Below are positions 27,625 through 30,232 of a stretch of 33,447 nt of DNA, in pieces (the first letter of the stretch is position 1; every line of letters begins with the position of its first letter). The position numbers and the translations under genes were made by a program. The notes under the pieces were generated by a model. It made no database searches, was not told the origin of the DNA, and worked only from the letters and a program-made list of their open reading frames with translations. Source of the DNA: Desulfurococcales archaeon (GTDB taxonomy: Archaea; Thermoproteota; Thermoprotei_A; Sulfolobales; NBVN01); assembly GCA_027002995.1 (NCBI GenBank), contig JALWZB010000149.1, forward strand, positions 1 to 33,447, read 5' to 3'.

Positions 27625-28704
27625 ATGGATACCGAGGAGAGGCTACGGTTAATAACTAGAGGAACTGTAGAGATAGTTACTCCGCAGGAGCTTAAGGAAC
27701 TTATTGAAACAAAGTCACCCTCAGGGTATCTGGGGTTTGAGCCCAGCGGTATATTCCACGTTGGGTGGCTTGTTTGGGCACTGAAATTCAAGGACTTAGT
27801 AGATGCTGGGGTACAAATGTACCTACTGGCAGCAACATGGCATGCATGGATAAACGATAAGTTGGGAGGGGACCTAGAACTAATACGCTTCGCGGCGACC
27901 CACGTTGAGGAGGTGCTTAATGCGTTAGGGCTTGAAGGGAGATTTAACCTAGTATTTGCTGAGGATCTAGTCTCACACATCGAATACTGGGAAAAATTAC
28001 TGAAGACCGCTAAATCCGTTTCTCTAGCAAGGGTTAGGAGGGCACTCACCATAATGGGTAGGAGACTCGATGAGGGAGAGGCAGACTTCTCAAAATTAAT
28101 ATACCCGCTCATGCAGGTAACAGACATGTTTGCCTTGGACGTCGACATAGCGTTAGGAGGTATGGATCAGAGAAGGGCTCATATGCTTCAAAGGGACGTG
28201 GCAGAGAAGCTAGGGTGGAAGAAAGTGATTGCGATACACACACCGCTAATACCTTCGCTACAGGGTATTGGGAGAATGGACTTGAAGAGCGGTGAGGCAA
28301 ACGAGCTCCTAGCCCAGGCAAAGATGAGCAAATCGAAACCCGAGACAGCGATCTTCATAATCGATAGCGATGACGAAATAAGAAAGAAAATCCGTAAGGC
28401 GTACTGCCCAGCAAGAAGCGTTGAAGGCAACCCCATAACCGAGATAGCTAAGAACATAATCTTCCGCGGCGAAGAAAAAGAATTCACCATCAACAGACCA
28501 TCAAAATTCGGGGGACCCATAACTATATACACCTACGAGGAATTAGAGAAGCTCTATGTCGAGGGTAAATTACATCCACTAGATCTAAAAAACGCTGTTG
28601 CTGAGTACCTAATCAAGATGATATCGCCATTAAGGGAGAGGTTACTTGCAAGCAAGAAATCAAGAGAATTCATAAAGACAATAATGGCGCGGGTAGGAAG
28701 GTAA
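27625..28704 (+). CDS. tyrS: tyrosyl-tRNA synthetase
   Basis: 359 residues from ATG 27625, chosen because archaeal TyrRS begins with a MDxEERLxLI-type helix and GGGTGAC lies just upstream; the open frame extends 31 codons further but without similarity. Class I landmarks: FEPSGIFHVGW (HIGH equivalent HVGW, 45-48), YPLMQVTDMFAL and GGMDQRRAHML for tyrosine and the Rossmann core, and KMSKS at 233-237. It charges tRNA-Tyr with tyrosine. The C-terminus ends after a short helical region, as in compact archaeal enzymes. A TATA-like CATTAAATATG near 27585 suggests its own promoter besides read-through. Confidence 0.93.
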   Translation: MDTEERLRLITRGTVEIVTPQELKELIETKSPSGYLGFEPSGIFHVGWLVWALKFKDLVDAGVQMYLLAATWHAWINDKLGGDLELIRFAATHVEEVLNALGLEGRFNLVFAEDLVSHIEYWEKLLKTAKSVSLARVRRALTIMGRRLDEGEADFSKLIYPLMQVTDMFALDVDIALGGMDQRRAHMLQRDVAEKLGWKKVIAIHTPLIPSLQGIGRMDLKSGEANELLAQAKMSKSKPETAIFIIDSDDEIRKKIRKAYCPARSVEGNPITEIAKNIIFRGEEKEFTINRPSKFGGPITIYTYEELEKLYVEGKLHPLDLKNAVAEYLIKMISPLRERLLASKKSREFIKTIMARVGR

Positions 28705-28771
28705 TAACTCCTGTGAACGTCTAGACTTTAATCACAGTTAGTTAAACTCAATAGCTTATTACGAGGGCCAG

Positions 28772-28823
28772 GGGTGACCCTCCCTGCTTCATAACCTCCC
28801 GTGACGCGGGAGCTTCAGCAGGG
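28772..28823. repeat. nested hairpin between tyrS and RHH gene, IS605-end-like
   Basis: An outer stem CCCTGCT (28782-28788)/AGCAGGG (28817-28823) encloses CTCCCG (28796-28801)/CGGGAG (28807-28812) with a 5-nt loop, and GGG-TGA-CCC lies just before. The minus-strand reading resembles the hairpin plus GGAGGGTCA type right end of IS200/IS605 elements; it could equally end both convergent transcripts. A separate CTGTGA/TCACAG repeat is at 28711-28737. Confidence 0.4.
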
Positions 28824-28841
28824 CCAAGAAGACTTCTCCCT

Positions 28842-29177
28842 TCAGGACTTATTAATCCTTCCACTGCTATATCTCCTGCCTCTCAAGAGGAAGTCAGGGG
28901 ACTCAAGCTCATCGATGCGCTCCTCTAAGTGATCAACACGTGAGAGGAGATCGTGGAGTAGGTTCTCAAGCACGTATAATTTACCTTTAAGGAATGCTAT
29001 CTCGTCTTCGTAATCCTTAATCTTCTTAACTACTGGTGAATTGCTTCGGATATCGCCATGAAGGCCCTCGCTTATAAACATTTTTATCACATCAGTTACT
29101 TGGACACCCATAGACGCAGCTAAGGTCTTCAGCTCTTCGTAGGTCTTCGATGGTAGCGATACATGTACTGTCGGTAT
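28842..29177 (-). CDS. ribbon-helix-helix protein with C-terminal coiled coil; apparent ATA start
   Basis: 111 residues if translation begins at the ATA at 29175-29177. From there the frame reads as an RHH domain (TVHVSLPSKTYEELKTLAAS then a second helix VTDVIKMFISEGL), followed by a coiled coil (about 55-98) and a basic tail. Only the ATA position is consistent with a full RHH beta strand; the first ATG (29111) would delete it. GAGGGGAT (minus strand, 29183-29190) lies 5 nt before the ATA and a TATA at 29211-29220 lies ~26 nt before that. No ATG, GTG or TTG occurs between the upstream TAG and the RHH strand. Likely a DNA-binding dimer, possibly autoregulating. Confidence 0.7.
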   Translation of the reverse strand: MPTVHVSLPSKTYEELKTLAASMGVQVTDVIKMFISEGLHGDIRSNSPVVKKIKDYEDEIAFLKGKLYVLENLLHDLLSRVDHLEERIDELESPDFLLRGRRYSSGRINKS

Positions 29178-29210
29178 GTCCTATCCCCTCAAGAGGAATA
29201 CTGAAGTCTT

Positions 29211-29220
29211 ACTATATAAA
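29211..29220 (-). promoter_or_regulatory. TATA box for minus-strand RHH gene
   Basis: Plus-strand ACTATATAAA; centred ~26 nt from a predicted start near 29191, directly ahead of the GAGGGGAT ribosome site. Confidence 0.55.
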
Positions 29221-29231
29221 ATTGCCCTCCA

Positions 29232-29263
29232 ATATGTCTTCCGCTTTAAAGCAGAAGACATAT
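29232..29263. promoter_or_regulatory. 32-bp near-perfect palindrome between divergent RHH genes
   Basis: The arms ATATGTCTTC (29232-29241) and GAAGACATAT (29254-29263) are exact inverted complements, and the core GCTTTAAAGC (29243-29252) is itself a perfect palindrome. Only the pair 29242/29253 mismatches. The core could also act as the TATA of the plus-strand RHH gene. The location and length suggest an operator for one of the two RHH proteins. Confidence 0.65.
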
Positions 29264-29333
29264 GGTAGCAGTACATGTAATAGTTATGCATCTTTTTTCA
29301 TGGACTCTGTAGTCAAAGGATTGGGGATATGTT

Positions 29334-29516
29334 GTGAAGATAGTGACTTTCAAGGTAGAGGAAGCACTACTTCGAAAGATAGACGAGATAGCTAGGATGG
29401 AGGGTGTCAGTAGGTCTGAGATAATTAGAGAAGCGTTAAGCGTCTACGTTACTAGGAGCTGGAGAGGGGAGAGGGTACGAAAAGGTATCCGTATAAGGCA
29501 CGTTATTCTGACTTGA
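29334..29516 (+). CDS. CopG-like ribbon-helix-helix protein
   Basis: 60 residues from GTG, with GGGGAT about 8 nt upstream. The order MKIVTFKVEEALLRKIDEIA (beta strand and first helix) then VSRSEIIREALSVYV (second helix) is the RHH/CopG fold used by small repressors and antitoxins. The last 15 residues are strongly basic. It is divergent from the coiled-coil RHH gene, with the 32-bp palindrome between them. No toxin-like gene is adjacent on the same strand, so a regulator role is more likely than an antitoxin. Confidence 0.85.
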   Translation: MKIVTFKVEEALLRKIDEIARMEGVSRSEIIREALSVYVTRSWRGERVRKGIRIRHVILT

Positions 29517-29563
29517 CGGTCTTATATTTCGTGCTTAACCGCCCTCAAATTTATTCTGTGCTT

Positions 29564-30232
29564 TTAAAAAGGAAAAGGAAATACGACAACCTTGGTTTTA
29601 GGCCACGATAGTAACTCATTCTTACTTGCATTCCATTCATTGTTTTCGAGCCTCAAGATTTCATATTTGTTACTGGCTATTTTTAGGAAATCATCTAGCG
29701 GTCTTAGAGGAAGGTTAACTCCTTTTACCCAGTAGTGCATTGGTATCACGGCTTTGGGGCTGATCATGTCTGATAATTCAAGTGCTGCCTTACTATTTAT
29801 GGTAAATGTGCCGCCTACAGGGACCATTAGGATATCGATTTCACCTAAATCCTGTATGGTTTTATCGTCCAGTAAGTGACCTAGGTCACCTGTGTGGAGT
29901 ATGCGTAGCCCCTCAACCTCAATTAAATACATTATTACCTTACCGCGTCGCCTTCCCTTGAATTCGTCATGGTATGCCTCGAACCCCGTTACGGTGAAGC
30001 CATCCACCCGGAACTTACCTTTCTTCATAGAGAACGTCCTGCCTCCCTCCTTCAGCACTACTTGGTAGGCGTTATGATCGAAGTGCTCATGCGTTATCAG
30101 GACGGCATCAGCCCTAACCTGAGGCTTAGGAAGCCCTATGCTTCCACCATCATGGGGGTCTACGACGAGCGTGAACCCATCGCTGGACCTTATCTCAAAG
30201 CATGCATGACCCCACCACTTTATCGTGACCAT
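29564..30232 (-). CDS. metallo-beta-lactamase-fold hydrolase, UPF0173-like
   Basis: About 222 residues from ATG 30232; the GTG three codons upstream lies inside the GGTG ribosome site and is less likely. WWGHACFEI opens the fold and THEHFDH carries the HxHxDH metal motif. LHTGDLGHLLDD and the late PMHYWVKGVN supply further ligands. UPF0173 members are close to ascorbate-6-phosphate lactonase (UlaG) but their archaeal substrate is unknown. It lies alone on the minus strand, 121 bp from the divergent methyltransferase. Confidence 0.88.
   Translation of the reverse strand: MVTIKWWGHACFEIRSSDGFTLVVDPHDGGSIGLPKPQVRADAVLITHEHFDHNAYQVVLKEGGRTFSMKKGKFRVDGFTVTGFEAYHDEFKGRRRGKVIMYLIEVEGLRILHTGDLGHLLDDKTIQDLGEIDILMVPVGGTFTINSKAALELSDMISPKAVIPMHYWVKGVNLPLRPLDDFLKIASNKYEILRLENNEWNASKNELLSWPKTKVVVFPFPF

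Follow-up and report, generated by a model that had tools for sequence, protein, structure and literature searches.

A conserved palindrome between divergent ribbon-helix-helix genes in archaea: a probable operator with a second, weaker copy at an apparent near-cognate start codon

In the genome of a Desulfurococcales archaeon, two small genes for ribbon-helix-helix (RHH) or RHH-like proteins, here called RHH_L and RHH_R, point away from each other across a gap that contains a 32-bp palindrome (O1). The question raised by this locus is what the palindrome is for: whether it is an operator, which of the two proteins would bind it, and which of the two genes it would control. The window, meaning the whole 33,447-bp stretch of DNA that was analysed, is contig C149 of a 1.86-Mb genome assembled in 155 contigs, and the features of the locus are collected in Table 1. 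The gap is 156 bp in size, counted from the ATA codon that is the likely start of RHH_L.

Table 1. Features of the RHH_L/RHH_R locus, in coordinates of the window.
Feature	Position	Strand	Remarks
RHH_L, 111-aa RHH-like protein	28842..29177	-	long C-terminal helix, predicted coiled coil
ATA codon, likely RHH_L start	29175..29177	-	in-frame TAG stop two codons upstream (29181-29183)
O2, second degenerate dyad copy	29175..29202	-	AGTATTCC-N8-GGATAGGAC plus start codon
GAGGGG, putative Shine-Dalgarno-like ribosome-binding sequence of RHH_L	29185..29190	-	
Putative RHH_L TATA box	29213..29220	-	TTTATATA on the - strand; between O1 and O2
O1, putative 32-bp palindromic operator	29232..29263	.	15/16 pairs match
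RHH_R, 60-aa CopG-type RHH protein	29334..29516	+	Pfam RHH_1, E 1e-12; GTG start

O1 reads ATATGTCTTC C GCTTTAAAGC A GAAGACATAT and is built of two exact 10-bp arms around a self-complementary 10-bp core, with a single mismatched pair (C at 29242 and A at 29253), as a sequence-only reading of this DNA had described it. Its centre lies 70 bp upstream of the RHH_L start codon, and it is the longest inverted repeat of its type in the window. The same reading had held that such a palindrome is not expected by chance, and shuffling bore this out. Palindromes with no more than one mismatch grew to a maximum of 26 bp when the gap was shuffled 20,000 times with its dinucleotides preserved, and to a maximum of 28 bp when the whole window was shuffled 60 times, so that 32 bp was reached in 0/20,000 and 0/60, respectively. 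In two sister species (L002/L088 and L003/L086) the 32 bp are perfectly palindromic; the mismatch is therefore not common to all sister species. The symmetry is poor in some own-family loci (e.g. L090, L091, L105 and L112). Covariation between the arms (f1) was not above column composition, with 13 observed against 12.8 expected at variable position 10, so the symmetry may simply reflect two half-sites that are conserved separately. A weaker, imperfect inverted repeat was also seen at 28705-28740, directly after the tyrosyl-tRNA synthetase gene, with 22-nt overlapping arms that are 73% complementary.

A palindrome of this kind could also be the end of a mobile element or another dispersed repeat, an alternative that had been raised for this site together with a genome search for further copies. 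When the search was run, the dyad was found in the own genome at O1 alone at up to one mismatch, and at up to two mismatches there were 28 places, against 34 for a control pattern. Across 31 own-family genomes, 43 places were found at up to one mismatch, against 35 for the reversed control; seven of the 43 were O1, as were five of the six exact matches. Many copies at unrelated sites were thus looked for in the own genome and family and not found. The palindrome sits at one place per genome among conserved neighbours, which refutes the idea of a transposon end and makes any dispersed-repeat origin close to inconceivable. As there is no excess of dyads elsewhere, O1 appears to serve the RHH_L/RHH_R locus and not a regulon of full dyads, and a regulon of O1 copies was rejected on the same family-wide counts.

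The relatives used for comparison were mostly metagenome-assembled Desulfurococcales or Sulfolobales. A 901-base DNA query matched the locus in 16 of 41 relatives, and the order RHH_L, O1, RHH_R is preserved among them. By tblastn, RHH_L was recovered in all 16 matched loci, RHH_R in 15, a metallo-beta-lactamase gene in 14 and the tyrosyl-tRNA synthetase gene in 11, several of the loci being cut by contig ends; at L014 the synthetase gene is oriented the other way. RHH_L is present in 28 of the 31 own-family genomes and, when weak matches are counted too, is matched in 103 of the 147 genomes taken from the order. In 88/93 loci the divergent RHH_R is complete and lies 139-200 bp from RHH_L. Many families of a single archaeal order share the divergent layout of the pair.

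RHH_L falls under Pfam's RHH cut-offs, RHH_5 being below its own cut-off. Its N-terminus, PTVH-x-S-x-P, is invariant in 14 aligned members and is followed by two helices and a long third helix. The AlphaFold model has a mean pLDDT of 78.8 and a pTM of 0.39, and the list of Foldseek matches to it is led by the RHH proteins VapB, Arc, MatP and PutA, with AvtR and CopG lower down, all of the matches being weak (E 0.1 and up, none below 0.001). A profile search of solved structures returned, for the most part, coiled coils and helices of viral or designed origin, and no named RHH protein, and a search of phage records found nothing. By its alignment, predicted model and Foldseek list, RHH_L is RHH-like, although it is below the Pfam cut-offs.

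Comparison of the gaps between the two genes revealed that O1 does not stand alone. Its half-sites (GTATTCC or GTCTTCC) recur beside the RHH_L start, again with 14 bp between GTMTT and AAKAC when the gaps are set side by side. This second dyad, O2, reads GTATT-N14-AGGAC in the window, with nine of the ten half-site letters matching, and all ten match in three sister species. The sequence-only reading had presented a lone palindrome: it holds up as a regulatory dyad, but as one of what appear to be two operators.

The pattern GTMTT-N14-AAKAC was scored, at a threshold of at least 8/10, in 27 own-family and 61 other-family gaps. The other-family set consisted of 64 loci among the matches with E about 1e-11 or better (G102, G153 and the fragment G049:C68 were left out), and five of the 93 gaps were omitted from dyad and box scoring, either because RHH_R was missing at a contig end (L101, L144 and L171) or because its alignment was partial (L105 and L148). 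In the own family the dyad centre lay 68-71 nt upstream of the RHH_L start (O1) in 22 of 27 gaps and 12-14 nt upstream (O2) in 10; in the other families it lay at 12-17 nt (O2) in 38 of 61 and at 67-76 nt (O1) in 25, all of these counts being drawn from related genomes and so not independent. Shuffled gaps contained 0.296 dyads per whole gap at any position, a comparison to be taken as indicative and not as a formal test, because the pattern was picked after the gaps had been viewed. Where both dyads scored at least 8 (29 gaps), their centres were 53-60 bp apart, the distance being 56 bp in nine gaps, 57 in eight, 58 in four, 53 in three, 59 and 60 in two each and 55 in one, so that 21/29 fall within 56-58 bp. 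In some loci, among them L162, L165, L167, L176, L178-L180, L186 and L187, neither dyad scores above 7.

In the own family the putative RHH_L TATA box (consensus TTaTATA) is one of the best-conserved parts of the gap, and 68 of 88 gaps have a TATA-like word 33-58 nt from the start of RHH_L. The usual spacing from TATA box to transcription start is 25-27 nt. The RHH_L transcription start is predicted at about 29190, approximately 26 nt from the TATA centre and near the centre of O2, which overlaps this predicted start, the ribosome site and the start codon.

As O1 and O2 flank the RHH_L TATA box, RHH_L is the best-supported regulated gene. Two features of an RHH autoregulator with a palindromic operator were found here: an inverted repeat at the gene's own promoter that is conserved in orthologues, and an adjacent RHH-encoding gene, RHH_R being a clear RHH_1 protein and RHH_L being RHH-like. 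We consider it probable, with some room for doubt, that O1 is a transcription-factor operator shared by the divergent genes, that O1 and O2 bracket the RHH_L promoter, and that RHH_L, as the most likely binder, represses itself. O1, which is near-perfect in the own genus, would lie just upstream of the TATA box and BRE, and the weaker O2 would be centred on the predicted transcription start. RHH_L could bind both sites by its N-terminal ribbon and so hold down its own expression, and its coiled coil possibly bridges them. O1, being between both promoters, may also set the output of RHH_R. The earlier suggestion of a repressor site that controls both genes stands as far as a single-copy, conserved dyad between divergent RHH genes is concerned, with the left gene as its best target, whereas for the right gene control through O1 is plausible from position. 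If these proposals are correct, the palindrome becomes part of a defined, testable regulatory unit that is found order-wide, beside a gene with a Sulfolobaceae counterpart in a cell-cycle repressor clade.

The arrangement of the two dyads could also be read as a set point, in which RHH_L at a low level occupies the strong O1 and brings in the transcription machinery, and at a high level fills the weak O2 and represses. This would be a mode of autoregulation by RHH_L and not a full alternative to it. Archaeal activators bind upstream of the TATA box, and O1 is placed in this way, with O2 centred on the predicted start; O1 is also the better dyad in the own genus, where O2 is degenerate. However, in the other families O2 is recognisable more often than O1 (38 against 25 of 61), which fits plain repression better, and we regard activation from O1 as doubtful.

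Another possibility is that both dyads act as RNA hairpins, for example by hiding the ribosome site, and not as DNA sites. O2 overlaps the ribosome site and tolerates many G-T pairs (34/38 at one position in the other families), which could pair in RNA, although these G-T pairs are explained by the GGGG of the ribosome site. O1 is upstream of the TATA box and should fall outside the RHH_L transcript, and with the predicted start inside O2 the left arm of O2 would be absent from the RNA. No Rfam match was found within 28700-29600 at E up to 1, and there was no clear covariation beyond column composition. A structured RNA element was rejected on the lack of both a known family match and compensatory changes, and the hairpin explanation is very improbable.

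A further question is whether RHH_R, and not RHH_L, binds O1 and O2, repressing RHH_L and possibly RHH_R itself. RHH_R is the protein with the significant Pfam match, and the half-site GGAATAC resembles a box, GTATTAC or GTAATAC, that was found in 37 of the 88 gaps (shuffle mean 2.6, maximum 8), eight of these in the own family. However, this box is separate from the dyads, lies beyond O1 towards RHH_R in most cases, at 90-109 nt from the start of RHH_L, and may be a candidate RHH_R site in its own right, while the paired dyads bracket the promoter of RHH_L. The choice of RHH_L as the likely binder draws on this separate box together with the general habit of RHH proteins. Against it, one or both of the RHH proteins could bind, the two genes travel together in nearly all loci, so that the absence of one cannot serve as a test, and the dyads are weak in some families.

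Viral proteins also speak for RHH_R as the binder, up to a point. The viral RHH protein ASV1_A59, annotated as similar to Saci_0942, has as its best match the RHH_R gene beside RHH_L in all eight f11 genomes tested, which we take to be Sulfolobaceae-type, a family name resting on the viral matches. The C80 homologues in SSV19-22 and ASSV1 are described, in PMC9608457, as highly similar to aCcr-1, and aCcr1 represses cdvA according to PMC12796447, PMC7617429 and PMC12284271. In the own genome, on the other hand, ASV1_A59 is nearer to another RHH gene, C133:6417 (51%), than to the RHH_R of the window (41%), so the link between RHH_R and aCcr1 is one of position. RHH_R is thus possibly the positional counterpart of the aCcr1-like cell-cycle repressor clade, and its binding to O1 and O2 seems to us unlikely, if well worth considering. 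The other gene (G000 C133:6417-6584, L247) encodes a second CopG-type RHH protein of 60 aa and has no RHH_L neighbour in the stretch read.

The segments upstream of cdvA were inspected by eye. Single TAATAC or GTATTA words were present in 7 of 28 segments, and no O1-type dyad was seen in the own genus, where O1-type control of cdvA was rejected for this reason. In the own assembly (G000) cdvA is split over two contigs (C31:7571-7720 and C124:2-211), and a clear TATA-like stretch (CTTTTTAAG), without an O1-type dyad, lies upstream. Should RHH_L regulate RHH_R as well as its own gene, the control of the aCcr1 clade would involve a partner that has so far been overlooked.

The inner dyad leads to the start codon of RHH_L, which is itself unusual. 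Among 29 own-family loci (L085-L113, from 28 genomes), codon 1 is ATA in 18, ATT in 10 and ATC in one, whereas in the other families the same codon is ATG, GTG or TTG in 63 of 64 loci, the exception being L154 with ATA. Search patterns containing IPTVH lean towards loci with an I start, and the start-codon counts were taken from other searches. Nine of the 29 loci, including four of the own genus (G000, G001, G002 and G004), have no ATG, GTG or TTG from codon 1 back to the preceding in-frame stop, and their next such codon downstream is at codon 6 to 23, within or past the DNA-binding ribbon. The remaining 20 have an in-frame TTG at -15 or ATG/GTG at -9, overlapping or adjoining the ribosome site, which may be used as the start. 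Assembly error is unlikely since the near-cognate codon is common to separately assembled genomes. From these comparisons, RHH_L in the own family appears to begin at an unusual AUA, AUU or AUC codon. Operator constraint as the explanation is only partly supported: in the own genus the outermost letters of the O1 arm are those of the ATA codon, and relatives with ATT or ATC misfit. A literature search of limited scope turned up no paper that deals with AUA/AUU starts conserved in archaea.

Tentatively, and with rather more doubt than conviction, we suggest that RHH_L is kept low at two levels, by a promoter with two operators, the inner of which extends into the start codon, and by a near-cognate AUA/AUU/AUC start that is kept family-wide while its third base changes. 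If true, archaea would have a natural AUA/AUU start that has been conserved for long, and with it a dose-setting device for a regulator paired with an aCcr1-type gene. Confirmation of the start codon would mean that selection has long maintained the use of near-cognate starts in archaea, and that gene finders limited to ATG, GTG and TTG would miss or mis-start such genes.

Among known systems, the locus is most readily compared with autoregulated RHH repressors such as CopG, PutA and the VapB and MazE antitoxins, which are likewise small RHH genes with palindromic sites in their own promoters. SegB, according to PMC12284271, has as its recognition sites two imperfect palindromes that precede its own segAB cassette, which again resembles the RHH_L locus. 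Unlike in all of these systems, a single archaeal TATA box at RHH_L is bracketed by two dyads whose half-sites are 14 bp apart, O2 enters the start codon and the divergent neighbour is another RHH gene; neither a toxin nor a ParA partner was seen beside the locus. The Sulfolobaceae cell-cycle repressor aCcr1 offers a possible positional counterpart to RHH_R, but differs in that the second RHH gene of the own genome is nearer to the viral protein and that the dyad was not seen upstream of cdvA in the own genus. MatP combines an RHH domain with a coiled coil and bridges matS sites. RHH_L is similar in having an RHH-like part followed by a predicted coiled coil, and MatP appears at Foldseek ranks 3, 10 and 19, but these matches are weak (E 0.35 or more) and the own genome and family have no chromosome-wide dyad sites. 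The infC gene, encoding translation factor IF3, has an AUU start codon, and its control by IF3 acts in translation. RHH_L would share with infC a conserved near-cognate start codon on a putatively autoregulated gene, but it encodes a putative DNA-binding protein, whereas the control of infC is translational. Set against these systems, the operator pair is most likely ordinary in kind and new in its arrangement, and the conserved near-cognate start is its most surprising feature.
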